This document shows, in pieces, positions 3,766 to 47,074 of a DNA stretch of 52,517 nucleotides. The translations under genes and the position numbers were made by a program. Source of the stretch: an uncultured Bacteroides sp. GTDB lineage: Bacteria; Bacteroidota; Bacteroidia; Bacteroidales; Bacteroidaceae. The DNA lies in assembly GCA_949292025.1 (NCBI GenBank), contig CASEYC010000034.1, positions 1 through 52,517 on the forward strand. Direction: 5' to 3'. Each line of letters begins with the position of its first letter. The first letter of the stretch is position 1. The notes beneath the pieces are model-generated. The model worked only from the letters and a program-made list of their open reading frames with translations, was not told where the DNA came from and made no database searches.

Positions 3766-3866
3766 TTGATGTGACGAAAAAGCCTTATTCGTCCTGCGAA
3801 AAAGCCTTATTGGTAGTACGAAAAAGCCTTATTGGTCATACGAATAAGGCTTTTTCGTCACGTCAA
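3766..3866. repeat. 22-bp tandem array 1 with inverted terminal unit
   Basis: Four units start at 3774, 3796, 3818 and 3840, exactly 22 bp apart. The first three share the core CGAAAAAGCCTTATTSGT separated by variable three-base linkers. The fourth is inverted: 3840-3859 is the exact complement of 3773-3792. The outer inverted repeat extends to 27 bp (3766-3792 with 3840-3866) with one mismatch. It fills the spacer before the histidine-kinase promoter. Architecture matches arrays at 16235, 32342, 45044 and 46990 although the sequence does not. Confidence 0.93.
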
Positions 3867-3968
3867 GATACAGCCAAGACCACCCCGAGTGACTACCAAG
3901 ACACCCCCTTGGCAGTGCAGGAACAAACTTTTTAAGCACCAAAACAGATGTCAAACCAAAAAACTCCG

Positions 3969-3976
3969 TATCTTTG
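3969..3976 (+). promoter_or_regulatory. Promoter element of the histidine kinase
   Basis: TATCTTTG lies only five bases before the ATG at 3982, so the transcript may begin at or next to the start codon (leaderless), unless the next ATG at 4012 is used. Confidence 0.65.
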
Positions 3977-3981
3977 GCCCT

Positions 3982-5310
3982 ATGATTGAGAACAAGAAGT
4001 ATATACACTGGATGGCAATGCTCGGCCTGGTAGTCATTATTGGGCTGCAAGGGGTGTGGCTGTATAATTCATATCAATCAGTAAAAGAAGAATTGGAAAA
4101 GGAATGCTTCTCCTGTCTTGATTTAGCTATGTATCAAGAGCAAAATATCATCTCCCAAAATATACCAGATGGAGCAATGATTATGGGAGGCCCTCCAAAC
4201 GATTCAATCCCCATAACAACATTATTATATGACGGCATAAGCAAACTTGGACTACAATATTCCCTATCTGAAGTAGATTCTTTAGCCGGCATAAGTTTAA
4301 AATACAAAGGAATAACATGTGACTATGTAGTTAATGAGATGAATCCTATTACAGGGGAGATATATCATAAAAGCAAAAAGATAAAAAAGACTTTGGGGAT
4401 AATTGTAGAATCTAAAATTGTTCCGATACGCTTAGATTATTCACTAGGATTACAATTAATCTTGGTGAATCCCATTCCCCTATTCTTCTCCCGCATGGGC
4501 CTCCTCCTCGCCGCCACCGCCGTGATGATGCTCTTTGTCATCTATTGCATCGTGTGGCAGGTGAAGATATTGCGCCGCATGAGCCGCGTGCTCCGCATCC
4601 GCGAGGACTTCTCCTACGCGATGGTGCACGACATGAAGACGCCCCTCTCCAGCATCATTATGACCGTGGAGCTTCTGCATCAGGGCCGACTGGACGACAA
4701 GCCCCAGCTGCGCGAACGCTACTTCAGCATTGCCGAGGCCGAGGCCCGTCACCTGCTGGCTCTGACCAACAAAGTGCTGACCCTCTCCAAGCTGGAGCAC
4801 CACCGCCTGCGCATGAATCCCGAAGCCCTGCCTCTCCGTCCCGTGGTGGAGGAACTGGCCGTACGCCTCGCGCCCCGATGCCCCAAGCCCCTGCGCATCA
4901 GCTACGACCTGCAGGTGCCCGACATCCACGCCGATGCCGAGTATTGGCCCGAGGTGATGCAGAACCTGCTGGACAACGCTGTCAAATATACCCGCCCGGA
5001 CGCCGAGGCCGTGGAGATACACGTCAGCACCCGCGCCGAGGGACGCCACACCGAGCTGCGCATCCGCGACAACGGCCGCGGCATCCCCCGCCGCCACCTG
5101 CGCACCATCTTCGACAAATACGAGCGTGCCTCCGCCGAACGCAGCCGACAGCCGCAGGACGGCGCCCCCGCCGGCTTCGGCCTCGGCCTGAGCTTCGTGC
5201 ACCAGGTGGTGCGGGCACACGGCGGCACCATCCGCGCCGAGAGCGAGGAAGGGAGATGGACGGAGTTCGTCATCCGCCTGCCGGAAATACAAGAGAAAGA
5301 AAAAAAATAA
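3982..5310 (+). CDS. Membrane sensor histidine kinase
   Basis: 442 residues from ATG 3982 (the open frame upstream of it precedes the promoter). TM1 is at residues about 10-30, followed by a periplasmic sensor of about 135 residues and TM2 at about 168-195. HisKA carries His216 in SYAMVHDMKTPLSS. HATPase_c has the N-box (QNLLDNAVKYTRP, about 325-340), DNGRGIP (about 363) and GFGLGLSFVHQ (about 399). It would phosphorylate the response regulator encoded 107 bp downstream. DNA for the sensor part (about 4060-4470) is clearly AT-rich while that for TM2 and the kinase core is GC-rich, as if the sensor had been exchanged. The ligand is unknown. Confidence 0.93.
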   Translation: MIENKKYIHWMAMLGLVVIIGLQGVWLYNSYQSVKEELEKECFSCLDLAMYQEQNIISQNIPDGAMIMGGPPNDSIPITTLLYDGISKLGLQYSLSEVDSLAGISLKYKGITCDYVVNEMNPITGEIYHKSKKIKKTLGIIVESKIVPIRLDYSLGLQLILVNPIPLFFSRMGLLLAATAVMMLFVIYCIVWQVKILRRMSRVLRIREDFSYAMVHDMKTPLSSIIMTVELLHQGRLDDKPQLRERYFSIAEAEARHLLALTNKVLTLSKLEHHRLRMNPEALPLRPVVEELAVRLAPRCPKPLRISYDLQVPDIHADAEYWPEVMQNLLDNAVKYTRPDAEAVEIHVSTRAEGRHTELRIRDNGRGIPRRHLRTIFDKYERASAERSRQPQDGAPAGFGLGLSFVHQVVRAHGGTIRAESEEGRWTEFVIRLPEIQEKEKK

Positions 5311-5314
5311 ATTT

Positions 5315-5390
5315 GGCGCGGATTACGCGGATGGACGCGGATTCCTTCTTTAACTAAAAACAAATCCGTGGAATCCGCGTAATCCGCGCC
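5315..5390. repeat. Intergenic palindrome, 9-mer type, copy 2
   Basis: Left arm 5315-5343 begins GGCGCGGATTACGCGGAT; right arm 5363-5390 is its near complement, with a loop of about 19 bp. It sits between the kinase stop and the regulator start, so both genes may still be co-transcribed through a hairpin. Same family as copies at 3029, 6129, 6931 and 12779. Confidence 0.9.
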
Positions 5391-5417
5391 TAAGAAAGAA
5401 TAAAGCAAGAAACTGAT

Positions 5418-6125
5418 ATGGTCAAACTATTACTCGTAGAAGACGATGTGAACCTGAGCTACATCGTGCAGACCGCCTTGGAAGACCTCATCGGCGGTTA
5501 CCAAGTGTTCACCGCCCCCAACGGCGCGGAAGGCCTGAAACAATGGGAGGAGCACCATCCCGACGTCATCGTCTCCGACATCGACATGCCCGTGATGAAC
5601 GGCTTCGACATGGTGCGCCGCATCCGCGAGACGGACAAGACCACGCCCATCCTCTTCGGCTCGGCCCTCACCTCGCCCCGCGACGTGAAGGAGGGCTACA
5701 AACTGGGCGTGAACAACTACGTCAAGAAGCCCTTCGTGCCCGACGAGCTGGACGCCCACATCCACGCCCTGCTGAAGCTGACCGAGGGCCGCAAGTCCAC
5801 CGACGAGACGGACCACTTCCGCCTGGGCCGCTACACCCTGGACGGCCCCCGCGCCATCCTGCGCGACGACACCACGGGCGAGGTGGAGACCCTGAGCGTC
5901 CGCGAGGCCGGGCTGCTCCAACTGCTGGCGGAGAACAAGAACGAAACCGTGCGCCGCGAGGCCATCCTCAGCCGCCTGTGGGGCACGGAGGAGAAGGACT
6001 ACTTCGCCTCGCGCAGCCTGGACGTCTTCGTCAACAAGCTGCGCAAACTCCTGGCCGACGAGCCGCGGGTGGAGATAAAGACGGTGCGCGGCGTGGGGCT
6101 GATGCTGATAGAAAAAGAAGGATAA
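5418..6125 (+). CDS. OmpR-family response regulator
   Basis: 235 residues. The receiver domain (1-120) has the acidic pair Glu8/Asp9-Asp10, phospho-acceptor Asp54 in VSDIDMPVMNGF, Ser82 in the switch position and Lys104 in YVKKPF. A winged-helix DNA-binding domain (about 135-232) ends in the typical FVNKLRKLLADEP...VRGVGLML block. It pairs with the histidine kinase just upstream and probably regulates envelope genes, but no target site can be identified here. Start ATG follows the 9-mer palindrome, so the two-component operon has a hairpin between its genes. Confidence 0.95.
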   Translation: MVKLLLVEDDVNLSYIVQTALEDLIGGYQVFTAPNGAEGLKQWEEHHPDVIVSDIDMPVMNGFDMVRRIRETDKTTPILFGSALTSPRDVKEGYKLGVNNYVKKPFVPDELDAHIHALLKLTEGRKSTDETDHFRLGRYTLDGPRAILRDDTTGEVETLSVREAGLLQLLAENKNETVRREAILSRLWGTEEKDYFASRSLDVFVNKLRKLLADEPRVEIKTVRGVGLMLIEKEG

Positions 6126-6128
6126 TTT

Positions 6129-6207
6129 GGCACGGATTACGCGGATTTCGCGGATTGATTATATAAGGAATGGGAACAAAATCCGTGTAATCCGCGTAAT
6201 CCGCGCC
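6129..6207. repeat. Intergenic palindrome, 9-mer type, copy 3
   Basis: Left arm 6129-6156 (GGCACGGATTACGCGGAT...) and right arm 6180-6207 (AATCCGTGTAATCCGCG...) with a 23-bp loop. Located in the spacer between the response regulator and cmk. Confidence 0.9.
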
Positions 6208-6227
6208 TAAAAACATCATATAACGTA

Positions 6228-6920
6228 ATGAAGAAGATAACCATCGCAATCGACGGCTTTTCCTCCTGCGGGAAAAGCACCATGGCCAAAGACCTGGCCC
6301 GAGAAATAGGCTACATCTACATCGACAGCGGCGCCATGTACCGCGCCGTCACCCTCTACTGCCTGGAGAACGGGCTGTTCCTCGCCGACGGGCAGATAGA
6401 CACCGGACGGCTGGAGCGCGAGATGGACCACATCCGCATCTCCTTCCGCCTCAACCCCGAGACAGGCCGCCCCGACACCTGCCTCAACGGGCAGAACGTG
6501 GAAGACCGCATCCGCACCATGGAGGTGTCGGCGCGCGTCAGCCCCGTGGCCGCCCTGCCCTTCGTGCGCCAGGCCCTCGTGGCCCAGCAGCAGGAGATGG
6601 GGCGCGAGAAAGGCATCGTGATGGACGGGCGCGACATCGGCACCACCGTCTTCCCCGACGCCGAACTGAAGGTGTTCGTCACCGCCTCGCCCGAAATCCG
6701 CGCCCGGCGCCGCTACGACGAACTGAAGGCCAAGGGCCAGCCCGCCGACTATGCCGACATCCTGGCCAACGTGAAGCAGCGCGACGACATCGACCAGCAC
6801 CGCGCCGTCAGCCCCCTGCGCCGCGCCGACGATGCCCTGCTGCTGGACAACGGGGAGATGAGCATCGCGGAGCAGAAGGAGTGGCTGCTGGAGCAATACA
6901 GGAGGATAATCAAGGAATAA
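6228..6920 (+). CDS. cmk: Cytidylate kinase
   Basis: 230 residues, the usual bacterial length. Phosphorylates CMP and dCMP using ATP in the cytosol. The P-loop GFSSCGKST is at residues 10-18. The NMP-binding segment ([17 protein letters not shown]) follows, then the [22 protein letters not shown] block that is diagnostic for Cmk, and [10 protein letters not shown] in the lid. The start ATG at 6228 puts the P-loop where expected. Flanked on both sides by copies of the 9-mer palindrome. ispH is next on the same strand; this cmk-ispH-pfkA order is a familiar Bacteroides arrangement. Confidence 0.96.
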
Positions 6921-6930
6921 AGGAGGTTTA

Positions 6931-7022
6931 GGCGCGGATTTCACGGATATATTCTTTGTCAATCACTGAGATCATGCGTTTTATAATAAAGTTAATCCGT
7001 GAAATCCGCGTAATCCGCGCCT
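6931..7022. repeat. Intergenic palindrome, 9-mer type, copy 4
   Basis: Right arm 6994-7022 is the full 29-bp form; left arm at 6931-6949 has lost one 9-mer (AGGCGCGGATTTCACGGAT). The loop is about 44 bp, the longest in the set. It sits in the cmk-ispH spacer. Loss of exactly one 9-mer in one arm suggests slippage within the arms. Confidence 0.85.
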
Positions 7023-7052
7023 AAAAACAACTCGATAAATCATCATTCAACT

Positions 7053-7916
7053 ATGGCAAACATCGAAATAGACAACGGCTCCGGCTTCTGCTTCGGCGTG
7101 GTGAACGCCATCCGCAAGGCCGAGGAAGAACTGGCCAAGGGCGGCACGCTCTATTGCCTGGGCGACATCGTGCACAACAGCCGCGAAGTGGAGCGCCTGG
7201 AGCGTCTGGGCCTCGTCACCATCAACCACGAGGAGTTCGGCCGCCTGCACGACGCCAAGGTGCTGCTCCGCGCCCACGGCGAACCGCCCGAGACCTACGA
7301 GACGGCACGGCGCAACCGCATCGAAATCATCGACGCCACCTGCCCCGTGGTGCTACAGCTGCAGAAGCGCATCAAGCAGGAACATAACCGCGCGGACGAC
7401 CCGGAGAAGCAAATCGTCATCTACGGCAAGAGCGGACATGCCGAGGTGCTGGGCCTGGTGGGACAGACGGCAGGGCGGGCCATCGTCATCGAGAACCTGG
7501 AGGAGGCCAAGCAACTGGACTTCCATCGCAGCATCCGCCTCTACTCGCAGACCACCAAGTCGCTGAGCGGCTTCCGCGAGGTGGTGGACTACATCCAGGC
7601 ACACATCGCGCCGGGCGTGACCTTCCAATACTACGACACCATCTGCCGCCAGGTGGCCAACCGCATCCCCAACATCCGCGAATTTGCCGCCTCGCACGAC
7701 CTGGTGTTCTTCGTCAGCGGCAAGAAAAGCTCCAACGGCAAGATGCTCTTCAGCGAGTGCCTGAAGGTCAACCCCAACTCCCACCTGATAGACAGCGCGG
7801 CCGAGATAGACGGGTCGCTCCTGGCAAAAGCCCGCTCCATCGGGGTTTGCGGCGCCACCTCCACCCCCAAATGGCTGATGGAGGAGATAGAGCAGGCCCT
7901 GCTGAAAAAGATGTGA
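7053..7916 (+). CDS. ispH: 4-hydroxy-3-methylbut-2-enyl diphosphate reductase
   Basis: 287 residues. Last enzyme of the MEP isoprenoid pathway, converting HMBPP to IPP and DMAPP with an iron-sulfur cluster. The three cluster cysteines are present: Cys13 (GFCFGV), Cys97 (DATCPVV) and Cys198 (DTICRQ). The substrate-binding histidine motifs RAHGEPP and SGHAEVLGLVGQ are also seen. It does not carry the C-terminal S1 fusion found in some Firmicutes. It follows cmk across a palindrome spacer and precedes pfkA, which has its own promoter. Confidence 0.96.
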   Translation: MANIEIDNGSGFCFGVVNAIRKAEEELAKGGTLYCLGDIVHNSREVERLERLGLVTINHEEFGRLHDAKVLLRAHGEPPETYETARRNRIEIIDATCPVVLQLQKRIKQEHNRADDPEKQIVIYGKSGHAEVLGLVGQTAGRAIVIENLEEAKQLDFHRSIRLYSQTTKSLSGFREVVDYIQAHIAPGVTFQYYDTICRQVANRIPNIREFAASHDLVFFVSGKKSSNGKMLFSECLKVNPNSHLIDSAAEIDGSLLAKARSIGVCGATSTPKWLMEEIEQALLKKM

Positions 7917-7973
7917 ATGGAAAACGTAACAACAAATTCAAGGCAAATCGTAACAACGGTTTCAGCTTTTTGC

Positions 7974-7981
7974 TATCTTTG
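7974..7981 (+). promoter_or_regulatory. Promoter element of pfkA
   Basis: TATCTTTG in an AT-rich spacer, 59 bases before the pfkA ATG. No clear -33 TTTG at the standard spacing. Confidence 0.7.
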
Positions 7982-8040
7982 CAAAGTCTAAGTGGCAAAA
8001 GACCAAGACGAGACATCATTAACATCAAATTCAATACAAC

Positions 8041-9021
8041 ATGGGAGCAGTTAAATGCATAGGTATTTTGACGTCGGGTGGTGACGCCCCCGGCATGAAC
8101 GCCGCCATCCGCGCCGTGACGCGCTCGGCCATCTACAACGGACTCAGCGTGAAAGGCATCTACAGAGGTTACAAAGGACTGGTGACGGGAGAAATCAAGG
8201 AATTCAAGAGCCAGAACGTGAGCAACATCATCCAGCTGGGCGGCACCATCCTGAAGACGGCCCGCTGCAAGGAGTTCACCACGCCCGAAGGCCGCCAGAT
8301 TGCCTACGACAACATGAAGAAGGAAGGCATCGACGCCCTGGTGGTCATCGGCGGCGACGGCTCGCTGACGGGTGCCCGCATCTTCGCCGAAGAGTTTGAC
8401 GTACCCTGCATCGGCCTGCCCGGCACCATAGACAACGACCTCTATGGCACGGACACCACCATCGGCTATGACACGGCCCTGAACACCATCTTGGACGCCG
8501 TGGACAAAATCCGCGACACCGCCACGTCGCACGAACGCCTGTTCTTCGTCGAGGTCATGGGCCGCGACGCCGGCTTCCTGGCCCTGAACGGCGCCATCGC
8601 ATCGGGTGCCGAGGCAGCCATCATCCCGGAGTTCAGCACGGAGGTGGACCAACTGGAGGACTTCATCAAAAACGGCTTCCGCAAGTCCAAGAACAGCAGC
8701 ATCGTGCTGGTGGCCGAAAGCGAACTGACGGGCGGCGCCATGCACTATGCCGAACGTGTGAAGAATGAATATCCGCAGTACGACGTGCGCGTCACCATCC
8801 TGGGCCACCTGCAACGCGGTGGCAGCCCCACGGCCCACGACCGCATCCTGGCCAGCCGCCTGGGCGCAGCCGCCATCGAGGCCATCATGGAGGGACAGCG
8901 CAACGTGATGATAGGCATCGACCATGACGAGGTGGTCTACGTGCCCTTCATCAAGGCCATCAAGAAGGACAAGCCCATCAAGAAGGAACTGGTCAATGTC
9001 CTGAGAGAGCTGTCCATCTGA
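8041..9021 (+). CDS. pfkA: ATP-dependent 6-phosphofructokinase
   Basis: 326 residues, classic bacterial PfkA size. Phosphorylates fructose-6-phosphate in glycolysis. Visible motifs are the nucleotide loop [13 protein letters not shown] near the N terminus, GGDGSLTGA, the catalytic PGTIDNDL segment, [20 protein letters not shown] and [13 protein letters not shown]. The GGDGS glycine at the position that distinguishes ATP from pyrophosphate users supports ATP dependence, from family knowledge. It has its own promoter and is followed by a strong hairpin, so it is probably monocistronic. Confidence 0.96.
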
Positions 9022-9048
9022 TTGTAAGCCTGCATAGGAAAACAACCG

Positions 9049-9083
9049 GACGAGGGTGTCCCGACAGACGGGATGCCCTCGTC
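9049..9083 (+). terminator. Hairpin downstream of pfkA
   Basis: GACGAGGGTGTCCCG pairs with CGGGATGCCCTCGTC across a five-base loop (15-bp stem, two non-Watson-Crick positions). The 3' side has no good T-run (ACATTTG), so it is a terminator-like or stabilising hairpin. Confidence 0.6.
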
Positions 9084-9190
9084 ACATTTGTCCGCCTGTC
9101 CCCCGATGCGGGAAGCCCCACCGGGGAAAAACAGCCCGTCAGCCCGGAAAAGGACGCCTTTTCTTGCATAAACATTATAAAAAAGGCGGA

Positions 9191-9216: not shown

Positions 9217-9218
9217 TG

Positions 9219-11793: not shown

Positions 11794-12762
11794 ATGATAA
11801 AGATAGGAATCATAGGCGGCGCGGGCTACACCGCCGGCGAACTCATCCGCCTGCTCATCAACCACCCGGAGGCAGAGATTGTCTTCATCAACAGCGGCAG
11901 CAATGCCGGCAACCGCGTGACCGACGTCCACGAAGGCCTCTACGGCGAGACGGACCTGCGCTTCACCGACCGGCTGCCCCTGGACGAGATTGACTGCCTC
12001 TTCTTCTGCACCGCCCACGGCGACACGCGCAAGTTCATGGACAGCCACAACCTGCCGGAAGGGCTGAAGGTCATCGACCTCTCCATGGACTACCGCCTCA
12101 AGGCCGAGGGCAACGACTTCATCTACGGCCTCCCGGAGCTGAACCGCCGCGCCACCTGCAAGGCGCAGCACGTGGCCAACCCCGGCTGCTTCGCCACCTG
12201 CATCCAGCTGGGACTGCTCCCCCTGGCCAAGCACCTGATGCTGAACGACGACATCATGGTGAACGCCATCACCGGCAGCACCGGGGCGGGCGTCAAGCCG
12301 GGCGCGACGAGCCACTTCAGCTGGCGCAACAACAACCTGAGCGTCTACAAGGCCTTCGAGCACCAGCACGTGCCGGAAATCCGGCAGAGCCTGAAGCAGT
12401 TGCAGAACAGCTTCGACTCCGCCATAGACTTCATCCCCTACCGGGGCGACTTCCCGCGCGGCATCTTTGCCACCATCGTGGTGAAGAACAAGTGCAGCAT
12501 CGAGGAACTGACGCGCATCTACGAGGAGTATTACGCGGAGGATTCCTTCACGCACCTCGTGGACAAGAACATCGACCTGAAGCAGGTGGTGAACACCAAC
12601 AAGTGCCTCCTCCACCTGGAGAAGCACGGGGACAAGCTGCTCATCATCTCCTGCATCGACAACCTGCTGAAGGGTGCCAGCGGACAGGCCGTGCACAACA
12701 TGAACCTGATGTTCAACCTGGAGGAGACGGTAGGCCTCAGGCTGAAGCCGTCGGCCTTCTAA
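11794..12762 (+). CDS. argC: N-acetyl/N-succinyl-gamma-glutamyl-phosphate reductase
   Basis: 322 residues. NADPH-dependent reduction of the acylglutamyl phosphate to the semialdehyde. The N-terminal GGAGYTAGELIRLL loop binds the dinucleotide. The catalytic Cys132 is in ANPGCFATC. The GSTGAGVKPG and FIPYRGDFPRGIFATIV blocks are typical of the family. The acyl group is probably succinyl in this phylum, which is inference from the known Bacteroides pathway. Start six bases after the PspC gene; argD follows after a spacer filled by the 9-mer palindrome. Confidence 0.95.
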   Translation: MIKIGIIGGAGYTAGELIRLLINHPEAEIVFINSGSNAGNRVTDVHEGLYGETDLRFTDRLPLDEIDCLFFCTAHGDTRKFMDSHNLPEGLKVIDLSMDYRLKAEGNDFIYGLPELNRRATCKAQHVANPGCFATCIQLGLLPLAKHLMLNDDIMVNAITGSTGAGVKPGATSHFSWRNNNLSVYKAFEHQHVPEIRQSLKQLQNSFDSAIDFIPYRGDFPRGIFATIVVKNKCSIEELTRIYEEYYAEDSFTHLVDKNIDLKQVVNTNKCLLHLEKHGDKLLIISCIDNLLKGASGQAVHNMNLMFNLEETVGLRLKPSAF

Positions 12763-12778
12763 TTCATATTTATCATTT

Positions 12779-12872
12779 GGCGCGGATTACGCGGATTTCA
12801 CGGATTATTCAAGCAAGGTTATGCTTCTCGTTTGATAAAAAAGGAATCCGCGGAATCCGTGTAATCCGCGCC
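12779..12872. repeat. Intergenic palindrome, 9-mer type, copy 5
   Basis: Left arm 12779-12807 starts GGCGCGGATTACGCGGAT; right arm 12843-12872 ends GTAATCCGCGCC, with a loop of about 35 bp. It fills the argC-argD spacer, so it lies inside the arginine operon. Confidence 0.88.
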
Positions 12873-12895
12873 TGAACTTTTAACCAGCAATGACA

Positions 12896-14023
12896 ATGAA
12901 ACTCTTTGACGTATATCCCTTATTCGACATCAACATCGTGCGGGGCAAGGGCTGCCACGTTTGGGACGAGCAAGGCACCGAGTACCTCGACCTCTACGGC
13001 GGCCATGCCGTCATCTCCATCGGCCACGCCCATCCGCATTATGTGGAGATGATAAGCCGGCAGGCGGCCACCCTGGGCTTCTACTCCAACTCCGTCATCA
13101 ACAAGCTGCAAGTGGAATTGGCCGAACGCCTGGGCCGTGCCTGCGGCTACGACGACTACCAGTTGTTCCTCATCAACAGCGGCGCGGAAGCCAACGAGAA
13201 CGCGCTGAAGCTGGCCTCCTTCCACAACGGGCGGACACGCATCGTCAGCTTCGCCAAGGCCTTCCACGGACGCACATCCCTGGCCGTGGAGGTGACGGAC
13301 AACCCGAAAATCATCGCCCCGGTCAATGCCTGCGGACACGTCACCTACCTGCCCCTGAACGACACGGAAGCCATGCGCGCCGAGCTTCGACGGGGCGACG
13401 TCTGCGCCGTGATTATTGAAGGAATCCAGGGCGTGGGCGGCATCCAGGTGCCCGACACGGCCTTCATGCAGGCATTGCGGGAGGAGTGCACGGCGGCGGG
13501 CGCCGTCCTCATCCTCGACGAAATCCAGAGCGGATACGGCCGCAGCGGCAAGTTCTTCGCCCACCAACACGCCGGCATCCGCCCGGACATGATTACCGTG
13601 GCCAAGGGCATCGGCAACGGCTTCCCCATGGGCGCCGTGCTCATCAGCCCCGAGTTCAAGCCCGTCTACGGACAGCTGGGCACCACCTTCGGCGGCAACC
13701 ACCTGGCCTGCGCGGCGGCCCTGGCGGTGCTGGACGTCATCGAAGGCGAGGGTCTCATTGAGAATGCGAAGGCAGTCGGCGCCCACCTGCTGGACGGACT
13801 GAAGAAGCTGCCGCAGATAAAGGAAGTGCGCGGCCGGGGCCTGATGATAGGCATGGAGTTCGAGCAGCCCATCAAGGAACTGCGCAGCCGCCTGCTGCAC
13901 GAGCAGAAGGTGTTCACCGGCGTGAGCGGCACGAACGTCATCCGCCTGCTGCCCCCGCTCTGCCTCAGCATGGACGAGGCGGACTTGTTCCTCGAACGGT
14001 TCGCGAAGGTGATGGAGAACTAA
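12896..14023 (+). CDS. argD: Acylornithine aminotransferase
   Basis: 375 residues from ATG 12896 (MKLFDVYPLFD); an ATG two codons upstream at 12890 is also possible. PLP-dependent class III aminotransferase that converts the acylglutamate semialdehyde to acylornithine. Seen are the GGHAVISIGHAHPHYVE segment, NSGAEANENALKLA, ILDEIQSGYGRSG and the PLP lysine (about residue 237) in TVAKGIGNGFPMGA. The last arginine gene in this cluster. argB, the transcarbamylase and argH are not in the window. Confidence 0.94.
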   Translation: MKLFDVYPLFDINIVRGKGCHVWDEQGTEYLDLYGGHAVISIGHAHPHYVEMISRQAATLGFYSNSVINKLQVELAERLGRACGYDDYQLFLINSGAEANENALKLASFHNGRTRIVSFAKAFHGRTSLAVEVTDNPKIIAPVNACGHVTYLPLNDTEAMRAELRRGDVCAVIIEGIQGVGGIQVPDTAFMQALREECTAAGAVLILDEIQSGYGRSGKFFAHQHAGIRPDMITVAKGIGNGFPMGAVLISPEFKPVYGQLGTTFGGNHLACAAALAVLDVIEGEGLIENAKAVGAHLLDGLKKLPQIKEVRGRGLMIGMEFEQPIKELRSRLLHEQKVFTGVSGTNVIRLLPPLCLSMDEADLFLERFAKVMEN

Positions 14024-16234: not shown

Positions 16235-16333
16235 CCGTCATTCGTTACATTACTGATGTAACGCCGTTACACCCGTACTGTAACGCCGTTACAAGACTAC
16301 TGTAACAGTGTTACATCCCTACTGTAACGCGGC
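16235..16333. repeat. 22-bp tandem array 2 (TGTAACnnnGTTACA)
   Basis: Units begin at 16257, 16279, 16301 and 16323, exactly 22 bp apart, with a half unit (CGTTACA) before the first and a truncated last one. The conserved core is the 15-bp palindrome TGTAACnnnGTTACA; the seven-base linkers (CCCGTAC, AGACTAC, TCCCTAC) vary but tend to end in TAC. It lies between convergent genes, ending five bases before the minus-strand stop codon, so it is unlikely to be an upstream operator. Confidence 0.92.
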
Positions 16334-17688: not shown

Positions 17689-17693
17689 TATTT

Positions 17694-17821
17694 AATGGTT
17701 AATGGTTAATGATAAATGGTTAATAGGCTGCGCACGGGGAACTGTTCAGCCTAATTTTGCCACATTAATCACTAACCATTAACCATTGATTATTAACCAT
17801 TAATCATCAACCCTTAATCAT
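17694..17821. repeat. AT-rich inverted repeat (TTAATGGTTAATGG)
   Basis: Left part 17694-17727 is built of TTAATGGTTAATGG-type heptads; right part 17763-17821 carries the complement (ACCATTAACCATT...). The central stretch is GGCTGCGCACGGGGAACTG... The composition differs sharply from the GC-rich proC before it. Confidence 0.75.
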
Positions 17822-17834
17822 TAACAACGTGGAC
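17791..17834 (+). repeat. Left direct repeat flanking the four-helix-bundle gene
   Basis: 44 bp ending in ...ACGTGGAC, i.e. including the GTG start of the four-helix-bundle gene. Matches 18173-18217 except for one indel and a few substitutions. Confidence 0.85.
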
Positions 17835-18185
17835 AACATCTTGAAAGGAAAGAGTTTTGAATTTGCCACACGGATTGTCAACTTATACAAGTTCTTGACA
17901 ACGGAAAAAAAGGAGTATGTCATGTCCAAGCAAATTCTTCGCTCTGGAACTTCCATAGGCGCCATGGTTTGCGAAAGCGAACATAGCGAAAGCAAGATGG
18001 ACTTCGTTCACAAGTTGGCCATCGCCCAAAAAGAAGTAAACGAGACCTTGTATTGGTTAAAGCTTCTATATGCGACCAACTTCATTGAAAAAGATGGTTA
18101 TGAAAGCGTCAACCAAGATGCCTTGGTCTTGCTTAAAATCATAACTGCAAGCATCAAAACTGCAAAACAAAATATTAACCATTAA
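17829..18185 (+). CDS. Four-helix bundle protein (23S rRNA IVS / S23 type)
   Basis: 118 residues from a GTG start. Belongs to the four-helix-bundle family first seen as ORFs in 23S rRNA intervening sequences: KSFEFATRIVNLYKFLTTEKKEYVMSKQILRSGTSIGAMVCESEHSESKMDFVHKLAIA, in which ILRSGTSIGA and ESEHSES are family hallmarks, then QKEVNETLYWLKLL. These are mobile, often repeat-flanked genes in Bacteroides; biochemical role unknown. Here it lies between nearly identical 44/45-bp direct repeats and is far more AT-rich than its neighbours, indicating insertion between proC and the cupin regulator. Confidence 0.9.
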   Translation: MDNILKGKSFEFATRIVNLYKFLTTEKKEYVMSKQILRSGTSIGAMVCESEHSESKMDFVHKLAIAQKEVNETLYWLKLLYATNFIEKDGYESVNQDALVLLKIITASIKTAKQNINH

Positions 18186-18217
18186 TCATCAACCATTAAT
18201 CATTAAATAACGTGGAC
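18173..18217 (+). repeat. Right direct repeat flanking the four-helix-bundle gene
   Basis: 45 bp matching 17791-17834; it begins inside the end of the four-helix-bundle gene and ends in ACGTGGAC, supplying the GTG start of the next gene. Confidence 0.85.
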
Positions 18218-23536: not shown

Positions 23537-23607
23537 TTGGGCTACCTGGATTCGAACCAGGAATGACAGGACCAGAATCTGTAGTGTTACCATTACACCA
23601 TAGCCCA
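23537..23607 (-). tRNA. tRNA-Gln (anticodon CUG)
   Basis: 71-nt cloverleaf on the minus strand: acceptor TGGGCTA/TAGCCCA plus discriminator A, D stem GTGT/ACAC, anticodon arm ACAGA-TTCTGGT-CCTGT, variable loop CATT, T arm CCTGG-TTCGAAT-CCAGG. The anticodon CTG reads CAG glutamine codons. The last anticodon-stem pair (31-39) is A with C rather than a Watson-Crick pair. CCA is not encoded. A promoter element lies just upstream. Confidence 0.95.
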
Positions 23608-32341: not shown

Positions 32342-32471
32342 CCTGCATAGGAAGGAGGATAGGAATCAATGCCAATGATTCCCCCAATCAATGCCGATGA
32401 TTCCCCCCAATCAATGCCATTGATTCTCCCCAATCAATGCCATTGATTCCTATCCTACTTCCCATGCAAGG
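32342..32471. repeat. 22/23-bp tandem array 3 with outer inverted repeat
   Basis: Four units start at 32364, 32386, 32409 and 32432 (periods 22, 23, 23). Each has the near-palindromic 17-bp core AATCAATGCCATTGATT, with C-rich linkers of 5-6 bases. Outer arms AGGATAGGAATCAATG (32356-32371) and CATTGATTCCTATCCT (32441-32456) are perfect complements and pairing continues with mismatches to about 32342/32471. Located between the 798-residue gene and the GH89 gene, inside the PUL. Confidence 0.92.
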
Positions 32472-42600: not shown

Positions 42601-43039
42601 TCATGTCCAGCGAGAAGTTACCATCAATGTCCGTGATAGTACCCTTGTCAGTGCCCAGCAGACGGACAGAAGCACCAATGATGGGTGCGCCGGCAGCATC
42701 CTTGACCGTGCCGGTCACTTTCTTGGCCGGCTGCTGCGCCTTCTTGGCACCCTTCCGAAGCACAATGTTCTTGCCTTGGATTTCATACGTCACGTCCTGA
42801 CCCTTGAGAATCTGGTCGATGGCTTCCTGCAACTCCTTGGCGTCGATGGACACTGTCTTGTCCAAGTCCAGGTCACCACCCACGTAGACAAAGGAGTAAC
42901 CGCTCTTCTTTTGCAACTCGGCGATGGCTTCTTCCACCGTCACCTTGTTCATTTTCAAGGCTATGCTTTGTGCATAACCGCTAAAATTGAGGCATAGCAA
43001 CGCCCCGGCCACCAAAATGGCCTTTTTCCCATAATTCAT
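39659..43039 (-). CDS. SusC-like TonB-dependent transporter with STN domain
   Basis: 1126 residues. Signal peptide about 1-23. The STN domain (about 25-95: VTVEEAIAELQKKSGYSFVYVGGDLDLDKTVSI...) is found only in transporters that signal to an anti-sigma factor. Then comes a CarboxypepD_reg-like domain (about 105-190, VTGTVKDAAGAPIIGASVRLLG) followed by VVVGYGTMKKKDLTGAVSSV leading into the plug. The 22-strand barrel ends KWAYPNVRTYSLGVDITF. It imports oligosaccharides across the outer membrane with the SusD neighbour. The STN domain should contact the FecR protein encoded upstream. Confidence 0.95.
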   Translation of the reverse strand: MNYGKKAILVAGALLCLNFSGYAQSIALKMNKVTVEEAIAELQKKSGYSFVYVGGDLDLDKTVSIDAKELQEAIDQILKGQDVTYEIQGKNIVLRKGAKKAQQPAKKVTGTVKDAAGAPIIGASVRLLGTDKGTITDIDGNFSLDMSKGDEVEISYIGYTPQVIKYNGQSLAVSLKEDTELLDEVVVVGYGTMKKKDLTGAVSSVKMDDAPVGTFSTISHALAGKAAGLQVSTISAQPGSGATFRIRGAASVNAGNDPLIIIDGFPVNPASDDVIKTGSYDNGSSDNILSSINPNDIASIEVLKDASSTAIYGSRAGNGVIIITTKRGKAGAPTVRYSGTASVQSIAREYEMMDASSFMKLTNASLHEQWMYENKIGIFGGGSEADATSSFTPKYSDEEIANPARNTDWLGAVLRTGFQTTHNVSINGGTDNTQYMVSGNFTMQDGVVKNNGIERYTLRTNLDQRLSKYVKVGLNLTATRSQYDNVPLGDGDSEYASILVAAARFNPLIPIKDENGEWSNNPEATFLPNPVSLLDVTDKTVKDRLLGTFYIDIEPVKDLHIKGNFGLDRLTQKRSTYLPTTTLYGQKMNGQATIAQGDSNDYLMELTANYTKMFGDHNLTALLGHSYQSFHREGFNAGNNDFLLDSFLYNNLGAGNADKPTVGSFSNVSKVSSFFARVNYSYKDRYLVAASLRADGSSNFAEGNRCGYFPSVSLGWRFSEENFMQSLQDVISNGKLRLSYGQTGNSNVGNRAMSFYGVGYNNVFGSTSVKGVYLTQLGNPDLTWETSKEWNLGLDLGFFNNRINMTAEYFHRNVSNLLATRPLLSYNEVSSIVANSGETVSQGFELTINTNNIRTKNFEWNTDFTLSLYRDDWKSRVDSWVPSAWESYNGPMRYWSGYLSDGLIQPGEEVPWQEGALPGQVKIKDIDGFVYNEDGSYKVDEHGIPLKTGKPDGKLDDADKVIYGRQEPGFMMGFNNTLRWKNFDFNIYFYGEFNKLMTSNYKNYWVSYNIGDLRRGYNLPTSALNVWSTENPNGTLPGFLQHYSIYGTADYYLEKIWFIRCRNITLGYNIPVKTSKHILSNVRVYVDVNNPFMFTNYGGLDPETDSSAKWAYPNVRTYSLGVDITF

Positions 43040-43153
43040 AAATAAGAAATTTTAAGATTAAACTTTCAGTAAGGAAAGTGTCTCTTCGGGGAAGAATGCC
43101 TACCTTTGTCAAGGCATTTCCCGGTAGACGTTCACAAGCTTCGAGAAGGAATG

Positions 43154-43161
43154 CAAACGTA
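43154..43161 (-). promoter_or_regulatory. Possible promoter element of susC
   Basis: CAAACGTA on the plus strand, i.e. TACGTTTG on the minus strand, about 115 bases before the susC ATG, in the 232-bp fecR-susC spacer. susC could also depend on the ECF sigma, whose site is not recognisable. Confidence 0.45.
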
Positions 43162-43271
43162 GTCGGGAGAACTGGTACTTCTTCCGGCTTTTTTTGCTTT
43201 CCCTCCATCGGCCCTCACGTGCTGAGGCTCATTCGATGTTTCATGGTCGCTTTCAGTTTTAAGTTAAACAA

Positions 43272-44285
43272 TCAATATATAATAATCACACTGTCTTTCT
43301 GTAACCGGTAGTTTATTTTCCCGGTAGCCTGCAGGATGTCCAAGATGTCCGACAAACCTTGCTCGTTGCGGTTAAAGCTACCATAAAGTCGCAGACCTGC
43401 CAAAGAATCCTCCTCCAGCCGGATGGAAGCATCGTAGCTGCGTTCCAACACTTGTATCACCTTGTCCAAAGGCGTGCCGTCGAACTCCAGCTTGCCGTCC
43501 ATCCACTTCAGGTAGCTGTCCGTCGCCATCCGCTCGCGCTTCATCCTGCCCTGGCACTTGTCCATCACCATCCGTTCATCCGGCTTCAAGGCCATAGGAG
43601 CTTCCTCTCGAATACGGTTGTCCAGCGTCACCAGACCCTCACGCAAGGACACCACCACCTCGTCTTCCTGGGGATAGTCCCTGAAATTGAACTTCGTGCC
43701 CAATACGGTCAGGGCGATGTTCTCGCTGCTCACCCGGAAAGGCTGCCGCTCGTTGCGCGTCACCTCAAAATAGCCTTCGCCTTCCAACTGCACCTCGCGG
43801 CTCTCCACCCCAAAATCTTGCGCATAGACCATGCGCGAACCGGCATTGAGCACCACCAACGTGCTGTCAGGCAAACGCATACGTGTCTGCGAACCCGCAG
43901 GAGCCTCCACTTCTATCCACGCCAACGTATCTTTCAGGTCTTGCCCGCCTTGGCGGTAGGAGAAATGGGCCACCATACAAAGAACAGCCACTGCGGCAAC
44001 ATATCGCAAGGCTTTCCGCCAGCGGCTTTGCCCGACGGCAGGCTGCGCTTCCGCGGCCTTTATCCTTCGCCGAAATGCCTCGAAGGCTTTGTCTGCGCCA
44101 AACTTTTCCAGCTCCTCCCCGCAGACGGCGGAAAACCAAAGTTCCTCGCGCTGCAGGAAGTAACGCCGGTTCTCTTCCGAGGCATTGATCCAAGCTTCCA
44201 GCTCGGCCTTCTTTGCCGGGTCCAATTCTCCGGAGAGGTATTCGGCAATCCACGCATCTATGTCATAACGCTCATTTTCTTTCAT
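43272..44285 (-). CDS. FecR-type anti-sigma factor
   Basis: 337 residues. The cytoplasmic N-terminal part (about 1-85: DIDAWIAEYLSGELDPAKKAELEAWINASEENRRYF) would hold the sigma factor. One TM helix (about 92-112, ALRYVAAVAVLCMVAHFSY) follows. The periplasmic FecR domain (about 125-225) has VEVEAPAGSQTRMRLPDSTLVVLNAGSRM... beginning IEVEAPAGS, and EGEGYFEVTRNERQPFRV. The C-terminal DUF4974 (about 265-335) has LKWMDGKLEFDGTPLDKVIQVLERSYDASI. It relays substrate binding from the SusC STN domain. The sigma gene upstream is frameshifted, so the circuit may be broken. Confidence 0.93.
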   Translation of the reverse strand: MKENERYDIDAWIAEYLSGELDPAKKAELEAWINASEENRRYFLQREELWFSAVCGEELEKFGADKAFEAFRRRIKAAEAQPAVGQSRWRKALRYVAAVAVLCMVAHFSYRQGGQDLKDTLAWIEVEAPAGSQTRMRLPDSTLVVLNAGSRMVYAQDFGVESREVQLEGEGYFEVTRNERQPFRVSSENIALTVLGTKFNFRDYPQEDEVVVSLREGLVTLDNRIREEAPMALKPDERMVMDKCQGRMKRERMATDSYLKWMDGKLEFDGTPLDKVIQVLERSYDASIRLEEDSLAGLRLYGSFNRNEQGLSDILDILQATGKINYRLQKDSVIIIY

Positions 44286-44360
44286 CTTCGAAGCTTTCTC
44301 TATTAAAGTAGACGATAAAATTATAGTTACGGGTAGTCAGAAAAACTGTTTTTTTGCTGG

Positions 44361-44959
44361 TCAGGCTAAAAAAACGGCCAAGAGGCAAGCGAGGTATTTC
44401 CCCAGGCTATCGTGCAGGCGGGCCAATGCGTTCTTAATGTGATACTTGACCGTATTGACAGAGATGCCCAGTTCTGCGGCGATTTCCTCGTATTTTTTTA
44501 TTTCAAAACGGCTTTTGAGGAATACCTGCCGACACTCCGCAGGCAAGGCGGCTATGGAATGGTGTATCTCGTGCTCCAGTTCCCGCTCCAGCAGGCGGCC
44601 CAGCGGATAGTCGTCCGACTGGATATAACGCTCGGACAAGGGCTGCTTCCCGTCTTCCTCACCTTCCAAAGCCGAAAAGGCAACCTCGGTGCGCTCCCGG
44701 CGCGAGGCAGATGGTCGAGGCAACGGTTGCGGACCGCCTGAAGCAAATAGCTGCGCAGGGAAACCCGTATGTCCAGCGACTCGCGGATTTCCCACAAGTG
44801 GAAAATGACATCGCCCACCAAGGTCTCGGCCGTATAGTCATCCCCCACCCACTCGCGAGCCAGATGACACAACACGGCATAATGCTTCTCATAAAGAAAC
44901 CTGTAAGCCGCTTCCTTGCCCTGCTTCAACTGGTGTATCAAGAGTTGTTCTTCAATCAT
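44361..44959 (-). pseudogene. ECF sigma factor gene, frameshifted
   Basis: From ATG 44959, region 2 is intact (FLYEKHYAVLCHLAREWVGDDYTAETLVGDVIFHLWEIRESLDIRVSLRSYLLQAVRNRCLDHL), and region 4 (IAALPAECRQVFLKSRFEIKKYEEIAAELGISVNTVKYHIKNALARL) lies in a different frame, ending at 44361. The frames must switch near 44698-44712 by the equivalent of a one-base deletion. No slippery heptamer is visible, so programmed frameshifting is unlikely; mutation or sequencing error remain. The unshifted product would run to 44552 with a scrambled tail lacking region 4. It belongs to the FecR/SusCD circuit. Confidence 0.85.
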
Positions 44960-44985
44960 ATCACAAAAGGCGGTCAAAGATGCGG

Positions 44986-44993
44986 CAAAGATA
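44986..44993 (-). promoter_or_regulatory. Promoter element of the ECF sigma gene
   Basis: CAAAGATA on the plus strand, i.e. TATCTTTG on the minus strand, 26 bases before the ATG at 44959; rules out the TTG at 44977 as the preferred start. Confidence 0.7.
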
Positions 44994-45043
44994 CGCCTTT
45001 TTATCCAATAAACAAACTTTCAGACGCGGGTGCAAGTTATGCA

Positions 45044-45160
45044 GAACAAAGTGTTCCAGGGCGCGAAACACTTGGTTCCAAGGCGCGGAACACTTAGTTC
45101 CAAGTACGCGAAACACTTGGTTCCAAGCACGCGGAACCAAGTGTTTCAGATACGTGAAAC
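45044..45160. repeat. 22-bp tandem array 4 with inverted terminal units
   Basis: Direct units start at 45061, 45083 and 45105 (CGCGAAACACTTGGTTCCAAG type; periods 22, 22, then 23). The unit at 45128 is inverted (CGCGGAACCAAGTGTTTC), as is the partial unit at 45044-45060 (AGAACAAAGTGTTCC). The core GGAACACTTAGTTCC is a near palindrome. It lies in the divergent spacer between the ECF sigma gene and the DUF456 gene. Confidence 0.9.
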
Positions 45161-45179
45161 GAAATAAGCAGTAGATTCT

Positions 45180-45210
45180 GCGGATTTCACGGAGAATCCG
45201 CTTACCTTTG
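45180..45210 (+). promoter_or_regulatory. Promoter of the DUF456 gene, with a 9-mer-type hairpin
   Basis: TACCTTTG at 45203-45210. Directly upstream, 45180-45201 (GCGGATTTCACGG...GAATCCGC) is a short relic of the 9-mer palindrome. Confidence 0.6.
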
Positions 45211-45247
45211 TCCCCAAGAAACAAACCTTCATACACATTATCATATT

Positions 45248-45721
45248 ATGGACATTCTCCTGATTATCCTGGGCGCCCTCTGCCTGCTCACCGGACTGGC
45301 AGGCTGCATCCTGCCCATGTTGCCAGGCCCGCCGTTGGCCTATGCCGGATTGTTGCTACTGCACTTCACGGAACGGGTACAGTTCAGCGTTGCCCAACTG
45401 CTGGTATGGCTGGGCATCGTGGTGGTCATCCAGGTGTTGGACTATTTCGTCCCCTTGCTGGGAGCCAAGTATAGCGGCAGCAGCAAGTGGGGCACACGCG
45501 GTTGCCTGGTGGGCACGGTGGTCGGGCTGTTCTTCATGCCGTGGGGCATCATCCTGGGACCGTTCCTCGGTGCTGTCATCGGCGAACTGTTGGGCGGGCG
45601 CCAGGCAGGCGAGGCGCTGAAGTCGGGATTGGGCTCTGTATTGGGCTTCCTGCTGGGCACAGTGCTGAAGTGCGTGGTATGCGGTTACTTCATCTGGCTG
45701 TTTGTTACGGCTTTGCTCTGA
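45248..45721 (+). CDS. DUF456 membrane protein (intact copy)
   Basis: 157 residues, almost all hydrophobic: helices at about 2-25, 28-45, 50-68 and, after a Lys/Gly-rich turn (GAKYSGSSKWGTRGC), two Gly-rich re-entrant helices (GTVVGLFFMPWGIILGPFLGAVIGELL and GLGSVLGFLLGTVLKCVVCGYFIWLFV). This matches DUF456 inner-membrane proteins with glycine-zipper-like segments; function unknown. A second copy about 2.2 kb downstream is broken. It has its own promoter, with no operon partner. Confidence 0.9.
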   Translation: MDILLIILGALCLLTGLAGCILPMLPGPPLAYAGLLLLHFTERVQFSVAQLLVWLGIVVVIQVLDYFVPLLGAKYSGSSKWGTRGCLVGTVVGLFFMPWGIILGPFLGAVIGELLGGRQAGEALKSGLGSVLGFLLGTVLKCVVCGYFIWLFVTALL

Positions 45722-45749
45722 AAAAAGGAGGCAAAAGTTCCGCTTTTTA

Positions 45750-46331
45750 TCACAAGTATTTCTTGAAAAACGCCTCGAACTTGTCGAACGGAATGATGTC
45801 CATCCTGTCATACAAGTCGGTATGGCTTGCACCGGGAATAATCATCAGTTCCTTGTTGTCTCCTTTCAATTTGCCGAAAGCCTCCTGGGAAGCCGGAAGT
45901 GAATAGGCCTTCTCTCCATGTACAACAAGCACGGCGGAACGGATTTCGTCTGCATGGTCGAGCAAGGAGAACGTGAGGAAAGGCAGGTCGGCTATCTTCT
46001 CCCAACCTCCGTTGGAGTTCACTGAACGGGGCTGTCCGCCGCTTTCTCCGCAGAATGACGGATCGAAAGCAAGAGTGATGAACCCACGTTCGGCAAGTGT
46101 CTGGGCATACAGTCCAGATGCCTGCTCCTTTACCGCCCCGTAAGGACCGCAGACCGTGATTGTGGGCAGTTTCCCTACATGGTTCTTAGGCATGTACAGG
46201 TCGCCGACCAGACGGATGCCGTAACGGTTGGTGAAGCTGACTTTCTTGTGGCTAACTTTGTCACTGAGGGCAAATGTCTTGTCCCATTCGGGAGTGTTGA
46301 TGTATTTCGTTTCCATGTTTAATCTGTTCAT
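45750..46331 (-). pseudogene. Alpha/beta hydrolase with internal deletion
   Basis: An open frame of 193 residues, but relatives as I know them are about 310-340. The N-terminal part is intact up to FDPSFCGESGGQPRSVN, including the strand and oxyanion region. It then jumps to SNGGWEKIADLPFLTFSLLDHADEIRSAVLVVHGEKAYS and the His-box GASHTDLYDR. The missing stretch (junction near 46010-46030) would hold the nucleophile elbow GxSxG and most of the cap. Without the nucleophile it cannot be an active esterase/peptidase-type hydrolase. The deletion kept the frame, so a protein may still be made. Confidence 0.75.
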
Positions 46332-46337
46332 TGATTA

Positions 46338-46683
46338 TTATTCGTGAATCTTGTGTAAGCCGATGCCTTTTACCGTGGGCAAATCCATATCGTCATAAAT
46401 CGGGCTTTTCCCGGTTTCAAGCGTGGCGATGGCATCCCTCTCTTTTTCCGTAAGCGTAAAGTCAAGGATGTTGAAGTTCTCTATCATCCGTTCCTTGCGC
46501 ACCGTCTTGGAGATGACCACCACATTGCGCTGATTCAGCCAGCGAAAGACAACCTGACCACATCCGGTAACCCACTTCGATGGCATCGCATACGATTCTT
46601 TCTGTTTCATCCACCGGAACCTGAAACACGCCGAATCCGATGGCCGGCATCATTACGCCATTATTCAATCTTACATCTTTCAT
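46338..46683 (-). pseudogene. Aldo/keto reductase remnant
   Basis: The N terminus of an aldo/keto reductase (MKDVRLNNGVMMPAIGFGVFQVPVDETERIVCDAIEVGYR, start 46683) is fused near 46550-46575, in a shifted frame, to the C-terminal end (GQVVFRWLNQRNVVVISKTVRKERMIENFNILDFTLTEKERDAIATLETG...). The middle, about 160-170 residues including the catalytic Tyr and Lys, is gone. The deletion boundary and frame change make it non-functional. It lies seven bases upstream of the damaged hydrolase, so both probably formed one operon. Confidence 0.85.
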
Positions 46684-46834
46684 ATCATTATGAGTTTTAA
46701 TTTCTGATGCAAAATTACGGAGTGCCTGTTGTTCTGTTGTTACATAATTGAGGGCAATATTTTCACTATTCGTGGTTTTTCTATATATTTATCCTGAGCA
46801 TTAAAAAAAGAAGAAGATGAAACGTCTGTAAAAT

Positions 46835-46894
46835 TCAATTGGCAATCCTATACTCACTCGGTGTCATGCCTGTCACTTTCTTGAGCATCCCGTA
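46835..46894 (-). pseudogene. AraC-family C-terminal scrap
   Basis: Minus-strand codons read YGMLKKVTGMTPSEYRIAN then stop, the extreme C terminus of an AraC-type regulator (typical KKxxGMTPSEYR). No frame continues upstream. The 46684-47184 stretch otherwise holds no gene, only this scrap and the 46990 array. Confidence 0.7.
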
Positions 46895-46989
46895 ACTTTG
46901 CAAGCAGAAAATCACCTTTCTGTTAATAATTAGTCAAATGAAAAGACAGCCAAAGACACCCCGTTTGCCCGTCGGGGACACACGAAATG

Positions 46990-47074
46990 CTCGTGGGGGT
47001 TCAACGAGGGTCTCGTGGGGGTTCAACGAGGTGGTCGTGGGGGTTCAACGAGGGTCTCGTTGGGGTTCAACGAC
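46990..47074. repeat. 22-bp tandem array 5
   Basis: Four units start at 46990, 47012, 47034 and 47056, exactly 22 bp apart. The core is CTCGTGGGGGTTCAACGAG, whose ends (CTCGT/ACGAG) are complementary; the linkers are three bases or so (GGT, GTG, GGT). The fourth unit differs by one G to T and a final G to C. It is strongly strand-asymmetric (G-rich on plus). Confidence 0.92.

Follow-up and report, generated by a model that had tools for sequence, protein, structure and literature searches.

We analyzed a 52,517-nt stretch of DNA from an uncultured Bacteroides sp. (contig CASEYC010000034.1 of assembly GCA_949292025.1; the whole stretch is referred to here as the window), five intergenic spacers of which each hold about four tandem units with a period of 22 or 23 bp (Table 1). 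These five arrays belong to a genome-wide class with a locked period, a wide diversity of sequence, and an intergenic setting, in which half-sites are constrained at one orthologous locus and uniform within four genomes. The explanation that we consider the best available, with a probability of roughly 0.47, is that dimeric DNA-binding proteins with sequence specificity (the putative readers) bind the arrays, which would offer them tandem sites in helical phase. Each unit would be a dyad of two half-sites of 5 to 8 bp around a short center, and the next unit would begin 21 to 23 bp further on, about two helical turns away, which would let about four dimers line up along the same side of the DNA. 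Proteins or specificities would differ from one family of arrays to the next, and specificity from species to species.

Table 1. Positions of the five arrays in the window and of a dispersed element in a related genome (G015; locus and position within it)
Feature	Extent	TRF span	TRF period (bp)	TRF copies	Strand	Units
Array 1	3766..3866	3774-3860	22	4.0	.	Four 22-bp units, core CGAAAAAGCCTTATTCG
Array 2		16243-16330	22	4.0	.	Three whole and two half units, arms TGTAAC-nnn-GTTACA
Array 3	32345..32467	32364-32450	23	3.8	.	Four 23-bp units, core AATCAATGCCATTGATT
Array 4	45044..45160	45053-45137	22	3.8	.	Half-sites G[AG]AACA / TGTT[TC]C
Array 5		46989-47073	22	3.9	.	Four 22-bp units, core TCGTGGGGGTTCAACGA
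220- to 280-bp element of G015	L173 7060, L171 7385, L177 7820, L187 7830, L222 10960					

The window arrays belong to a genome-wide class

An earlier note on this DNA had described five intergenic arrays of about four units, alike in their 22-bp period and unrelated in sequence. Tandem Repeats Finder (TRF) recovered all five at the places described, with 3.8 to 4.0 copies each; the 22-bp period was borne out for arrays 1, 2, 4, and 5, but array 3 has one of 23 bp. The cores had been called palindromic or near-palindromic, which is too strong for array 5, whose core is weakly dyad symmetric (TCGT...ACGA). The inversion of the last unit in arrays 1 and 4 turned out to mean little, as flipping a near-palindromic unit alters only one or two letters. 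Long inverted repeats do enclose array 1 (3765-3776 / 3856-3867; outside these, CTTGG recurs more faintly every 22 bp) and array 3 (imperfect, ∼22 bp), but they are not general. A flank test found them at a P of <0.01 in 3 of the 36 arrays kept from 632 kb of the window's own genome (array 1, P = 0.015; array 3, P = 0.054), and we rejected them as a class-defining feature; this test and an orientation test on the same number of arrays, which showed no bias, left out 7 of 43 rows, of coding, 7-bp, and 11-bp types. Finally, the five cores are indeed unrelated to each other, but relatives of those of arrays 1, 2, 3, and 4 lie at 6, 3, 3, and 5 other places, respectively, of the same genome; for array 5, none was found there at an E value of 0.001.

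The window is contig 34 of the 147 contigs of its genome (3.47 Mb, referred to as G000; other genomes and loci carry G and L numbers). The DUF456 gene at 45248-45721 led to Candidatus Bacteroides pullicola as the nearest relative with a name (98% protein identity). The genome of the latter, G099, gave listed matches identical to those of G015, so that the two are treated as one. Aligned stretches of the relatives are mostly 82 to 98% identical. Loci L034 to L049 and L169 to L181 were picked around known matches, which raises the full-set counts for G000 and G015, and separate lag counts were also made on stretches of G000 not picked for arrays.

The periodicity was checked by lag autocorrelation (span of 40 bp, 75% identity; one array may count at two lags), and it survived the comparison of lag 22 with lags 18 to 26. 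In 334 kb of G000, comprising the window and stretches not picked for arrays, lags 21, 22, 23, and 24 gave 3, 14, 7, and 1 arrays, lag 44 gave 8, and lags 12 to 20 and 25 to 43 gave 4 altogether. With the window excluded (288 kb not picked for arrays, three all-N loci dropped), there were 7 arrays at lag 22 and 4 at lag 23, and every other lag from 8 to 60 had 0 to 2. The 972 kb of G015, some stretches of which were picked for known matches, gave 4, 67, 13, and 3 arrays at lags 21 to 24, 28 at lag 44, and at most 3 at any other lag from 12 to 43. Loci from others of the Bacteroides group (1.27 Mb) gave 11, 23, 4, and 3 arrays at lags 21 to 24 and at most 3 at any other lag from 14 to 33; a single array, at lag 22, was found in 194 kb of other Bacteroidales, and none at lags 14 to 32 in 50 kb of Escherichia coli. 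We estimate roughly 150 to 290 arrays per genome in this clade.

Many sequence families share one spacing

Clustering at 72% split 142 arrays from G000 and G015 into 37 sequence clusters, the largest of which contain 30, 17, 12, 12, 11, and 11 arrays. This set comprises all TRF rows with a period of 21 to 23 bp and a score of at least 60, including coding, 7-bp, and 11-bp types, and some of its members are orthologous pairs, counted once per genome. The spacing between neighboring copies of six motifs was measured with no lag filter, and 136 of the 140 distances up to 70 bp were 22 or 23 bp, the remaining ones being 25, 44, 44, and 46 bp. Motif by motif, these were 32 at 22 and 1 at 44 bp; 2 at 22, 22 at 23, 1 at 25, and 1 at 46 bp; 13 at 22 and 23 at 23 bp; 16 at 22 and 1 at 44 bp; and, for the last two motifs, with TGTAAC and GTTCCA arms, 15 and 13, all at 22 bp. 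The last two are probably related; the linker GTACGGG is common to some arrays of both. A further family, ATTTCC..GGAAAT, repeats every 21 bp in 19 of 20 rows. The strict pair pattern of family 4, with the gap left free between 5 and 9 bp, matched 13 sites in G000, 3 with a gap of 7 bp and 10 with a gap of 8 bp. As an order-wide motif, this family was discarded, given that the strict pattern matched only G000 among 149 genomes of the order; looser motifs are present in several named Bacteroides.

Dyad symmetry and gene setting

Dyad symmetry was measured with a stem score, which replaced a circular dyad score that had proved too weak. For arrays with a period of 21 to 23 bp, the consensus units formed better stems than shuffled ones in G000 (5.40 versus 3.84; 46 arrays), G015 (4.64 versus 3.67; 96 arrays), and relatives (5.11 versus 3.60; 56 arrays), with mean mid-P values of 0.20, 0.33, and 0.22. 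The corresponding values for arrays of other periods were 0.63, 0.44, and 0.36, their stems exceeding the shuffles weakly or not at all.

Since the units are near-palindromes, the arrays could also be rows of hairpins in transcripts, acting as terminators or as processing or stability elements. Among the 99 units of family 1, which are partly nonindependent (several loci are included twice), arm positions 4, 6, 7, and 8 are nearly invariant on both sides, and position pairs 2/16 and 5/13 vary without compensation (paired in 0.32 versus 0.41 expected and in 0.38 versus 0.49 expected, respectively). The motif allowed mismatches anywhere, so its filter did not produce the concentration of change at those positions. 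One mismatched pair persists in 36 of the 47 units of family 3. A hairpin constraint finds no support where family 1 varies, but in families 3 and 4 pairing exceeds expectation at some positions. On balance, the symmetry data favor two half-sites on double-stranded DNA over a hairpin. Moreover, a row of hairpins would need no constant period of 22 bp and no uniformity of half-sites, and no Rfam family matched the window arrays at the gathering score, the only two matches in the window being a group II intron (52380-52470) and a tRNA (23537-23607).

The gene setting bears on the same question. According to a crude home-made gene caller, the 120 arrays with 2.6 copies or more (43 from G000 and 77 from G015) lie between tandem genes in 68 cases, divergent genes in 29, and convergent genes in 11; 3 are within genes and 9 at edges, so that 108 of the 111 placed arrays are intergenic. 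Reference spacers of at least 120 bp are distributed similarly (324 tandem, 121 divergent, and 42 convergent), and the arrays thus show no orientation bias, which speaks against a simple function as terminator or promoter; we rejected both as explanations by gene orientation, within the accuracy of the gene caller. Of the 68 arrays between tandem genes, 48 are closer to the upstream stop codon, as would suit an element of the transcript. Taken together, we consider a function in RNA to be very improbable.

Half-sites and arrays at orthologous spacers

Among the G015 stretches compared, a counterpart spacer was found for 14 of the 36 G000 arrays, that of array 5 being doubtful. Eight of these hold an array of the same family in G015 (arrays 1 and 2, L004, L015, L039, L042, L044 in part, and L053 18351), and in four G015 has another array (arrays 3 and 4, L017, and L053 17518); L047 is degraded in G015, and the doubtful counterpart of array 5 shows none.

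At two of the spacers that kept their family, the half-sites stayed the same. Over all four units of the orthologues L004 and L171, 0 of 40 arm positions changed, compared with 8 of 20 in the centers and 16 of 28 in the linkers. Between the window and G015, array 2 differs at 0 of 36 arm, 1 of 9 center, and 3 of 21 linker positions. In all of these counts, arm limits were fixed after the units were seen. Array 2 has the form TGTAAC-nnn-GTTACA in both of these genomes, TGTTAC-nnn-GTAACA in every unit of G068, and the TGTTAC form in G076, plus one TTTTAC/GTAAAA unit; the spacer holds GTTCCA..TGGAAC in G045, G089, and G053. The window and G068 differ at 6 of 36 arm positions, with the same letter affected in six half-sites, and at 13 of 21 linker positions. 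A unit-by-unit account of this change between the genome groups was dropped, since centers and linkers of the TGTAAC and TGTTAC groups match no better (0.40 to 0.46) than those of different loci (mean of 0.47 and maximum of 0.59 in 33 comparisons).

At other spacers, relatives hold a different array. The array 3 spacer carries AATCAATGCCATTGATT units in the window and G100 (flanks 99% identical) and 22-bp CATCATCGTACATGATG units in G015 (flanks 92%), each version within its own inverted repeat. Three cores occupy the array 4 spacer, namely, that of the window, two ATCTCC..GGAGAT units in G015, and four ATTTCC..GGAAAT units in G100. At L017 8881, the GGGAA..TTCCC array of G000 is replaced in G015 by GAAACACTTTGTTTC units between flanks that are 97% identical. 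The array 1 spacer has retained its flanks, with four units in the window, five in G015, and two in G045. One G015 array is missing in G000, where a half-site and a GGC microhomology remain, and this looks like a deletion with microhomology rather than an insertion.

The chief rival explanation dispenses with a reader. A neutral process of mutation, with a length inherent to it, would generate and preserve the arrays, short palindromes being multiplied by slippage and their arms being kept complementary through template switching in replication. The variable copy number at the array 1 locus and the half-site and microhomology left where the G015 array is missing in G000 are in line with it, as are the avoidance of genes and the closeness to upstream stop codons expected of tolerated debris. 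One study (PMC8794818) describes replication template switching as able to create and maintain compensatory arms. Such a process, however, leaves unexplained that half-sites stay unchanged beside changed linkers, that a single half-site variant recurs at loci of the same genome with unrelated linkers, and that 22 to 23 bp is fixed across motifs. We regard it as fairly unlikely.

Half-sites of one family are uniform within each of four genomes

To compare half-sites across genomes, we used a pattern with A or T free in each half-site and a gap of 5 to 9 bp on 99 genomes of the genus. It matched 37 pairs in four genomes (4 in G000, 22 in G015, 5 in G068, and 6 in G076). Among the 35 pairs listed, 24 of 24 in G000 and G015 are TGTAAC/GTTACA and 11 of 11 in G068 and G076 are TGTTAC/GTAACA, with none mixed; all have a gap of 7 bp and a period of 22 bp, and they come from 2 separate places in G000, 14 in G015, 4 in G068, and 3 in G076. 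This result is independent of how array 2 changed, whether in place or by replacement. Linkers from the four G068 loci are no more alike than shuffled ones (0.38 versus 0.36; n = 9), which means that recent copying alone does not account for the uniformity of the half-site in that genome. For G000 (0.46 versus 0.36) and G076 (0.50 versus 0.31), the four comparisons each are too few to judge. A second half-site family tends to differ between genomes as well, with ATTTCC in G100, G248, and G250 and ATCTCC in G249, apart from the exceptions given below.

Some arrays lie within a dispersed element

Copying would account for uniform half-sites if the arrays spread as nonautonomous mobile elements, similar to miniature inverted-repeat transposable elements (MITEs) or to the REPIN type of repeat discussed below. 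In favor of this, the families are dispersed, TGTAAC pairs number 22 in G015 versus 4 in G000, G015 linkers are alike between loci, and whole-array replacement at a spacer occurs. Furthermore, arrays of two families in G015 are found inside a dispersed element of 220 to 280 bp (Table 1) with imperfect inverted ends, TAAGTAG..TTAGTTTATA, and with the array units in its middle; several copies have one end just before an apparent gene start, and some units within it are chimeras that combine the half-sites of two families. The GTACCTGCGCCCGTGCTTACC cluster, the one with 30 arrays, has perhaps spread recently in G015, which contributes 26 of them from its stretches (L188, L189, L191, L192, L194, and others) compared with 4 from G000.

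On the other hand, no shared ends surround the other arrays inspected, either by eye or in the flank test, and the G068 linkers are unrelated over four loci despite uniform half-sites. As for features of MITEs, enclosing inverted repeats were significant in the 3 of 36 arrays mentioned above, the one presence/absence pair is deletion-like, and target-site duplication is not established. A search for the Y1 transposase (PF01797; the only transposase searched), for which the E. coli positive control matched, gave no match in G015, G068, and G076; at the completeness of the assemblies, 83 to 96%, a gene could be missed. G000 has one partial match of 228 bp (31.7 bits, cutoff of 23; C45:18028-18255, L272) inside a 1,168-amino-acid open frame. 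Spread as mobile arrays comes next after the neutral process among the rivals and appears unlikely to us.

Weighing the protein-reader explanation

Tandem sites for dimeric proteins would account for the locked spacing together with the conserved and uniform half-sites. We infer the protein reader, its dimeric form, its cooperative binding, and the following of the reader by the half-sites. As a guess, the arrays may serve in chromosome organization or, because gene orientation does not matter, as insulators or roadblocks between genes. The earlier note had proposed a protein that reads geometry rather than sequence. The data agree with a single class set by geometry, given the locked 22 to 23 bp over 37 clusters, but sequence would be read too, because half-sites are conserved relative to centers and linkers and are uniform over dispersed arrays of a genome. 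The common generating process that the same note offered as an alternative is still a possible source of the fixed length.

Several observations weigh against this explanation. No reader protein was identified. Some pairs behave as expected of hairpins, such as positions 1/17 of family 3 (paired in 0.98 versus 0.73 expected) and 5/11 and 6/10 of family 4 (1.00 versus 0.89 and 0.70 versus 0.48), and symmetric double changes occur, both from TTCCA/TGGAA to TCACA/TGTGA at L220 of G015 and in the TTTTAC/GTAAAA unit of G076. Large families such as GTACCTGCGCCCGTGCTTACC have weak dyads. The half-site switch at array 2 may be a whole-array replacement, because centers and linkers match there no better than between loci. 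Linkers in G015 resemble each other over the six loci compared (0.71 versus 0.36 shuffled), and copying may therefore explain the half-site uniformity of that genome. The second half-site family is less clean, as ATTTCC and ATCTCC occur together in 4 of its 20 rows, from 3 places, and the reversed control gave one match, in G250. Lastly, genomes carry several half-site types, even within one array, as at L258 and L220 of G015; at L044, G015 has three GTTCCA..TGGAAC units followed by TCACA-GTACGGG-TGTGA units.

An extended form of the protein-reader explanation, which we put forward tentatively and as somewhat unlikely, is that Bacteroides chromosomes possess hundreds of tandem operator arrays with diversifying readers, the geometry being set by protein packing and the half-sites coevolving with the readers and being kept uniform per family and genome, as a bacterial counterpart of reader-satellite coevolution. 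If sites for protein readers are indeed what the arrays represent, dominant gut bacteria would have an unrecognized genome-wide DNA-binding system in many of their spacers, with a specificity that differs between close species. A change in reader specificity that many sites have to follow would become testable, and the turnover of spacers between such similar relatives would be easier to explain. Should the arrays turn out to be neutral, a process of mutation that measures out 22 bp would still be something new.

Other repeats and duplications

The window contains a partial second copy of DUF456 (47412-47736), which adjoins a gene at 47692-48936, the one that follows DUF456 in relatives; other DNA lies between the copies (45750-47400). 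Long hairpins with arms of 9-bp repeats (CGCGGATTA / AATCCGCG) are located at 2999-3136, 5253-5437, 6884-7073, and 12743-12916; several of these spacers have other hairpins in G015, e.g., with GAAGAATGAA repeats, and G100 contains dozens of matches to a stretch near 6933-7050. Repeats of 7 bp (TTAATGG / CATTAACC) at 17692-17825 and 18174-18206 face each other as inverted repeats. In addition, 11-bp arrays (GGATAACGGAG) and 22-bp arrays built from an 11-bp half (TATTACTCCTA) occur at L045 5258-5299, L049 2288-2326, L050 2113-2160, and L011 18894-18958; they are nonpalindromic, and 11 bp is about one helical turn, or half the main period.

Comparison with known systems

In a literature search, with most subscription journals outside its reach, we recognized no description of such arrays, and the closest described repeats found, BrickBuilt and REP/RAYT, do not fit. 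BrickBuilt, a MITE of Porphyromonas gingivalis, is described as having intergenic 23-nt tandem repeats of a single sequence family, with no spacers between the repeats, a leader, a tail, and 12-bp terminal inverted repeats of the GAGACCTTTGCA type (PMC4596501). The present arrays resemble it as intergenic tandem repeats of about 23 bp in Bacteroidales, but they lack a single 23-nt repeat, falling instead into many clusters with dyad cores and linkers, and their flanks appear locus specific by eye, apart from the G015 element with shared ends that starts with TAAGTAG.

Repetitive extragenic palindromic (REP) sequences, together with their BIME and REPIN arrangements, are intergenic palindromic repeats found at hundreds of places and sometimes in regularly spaced clusters (PMC2817692 and PMC3116915). 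The arrays share the intergenic setting, the palindromes, and the many places, whereas their units run head to tail at a fixed 21 to 23 bp and have many different sequences. REP/REPIN repeats are also described as carrying a GTAG- or CGTC-type tag at one end (PMC3733652); the units inspected by eye have no common tag, with GTAG in some linkers. A further difference from REP sequences with their transposase, RAYT, is that a Y1 transposase match is absent in three of the four genomes searched. Clustered regularly interspaced short palindromic repeats (CRISPR) are similar in being short, partly palindromic direct repeats in intergenic arrays, but the present units are 21 to 23 bp apart with linkers of 3 to 8 bp and have no unique repeat-length spacers (cas genes were not searched).

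The tandem operators of lambda OR consist of dyads of ∼17 bp every 23 to 24 bp that are bound cooperatively by dimers. Unlike these, the arrays number 36 in 632 kb, lie in spacers of every gene orientation, and have many half-site types and readers that are only putative; what they have in common with lambda OR is the repetition of dyads at a similar spacing.

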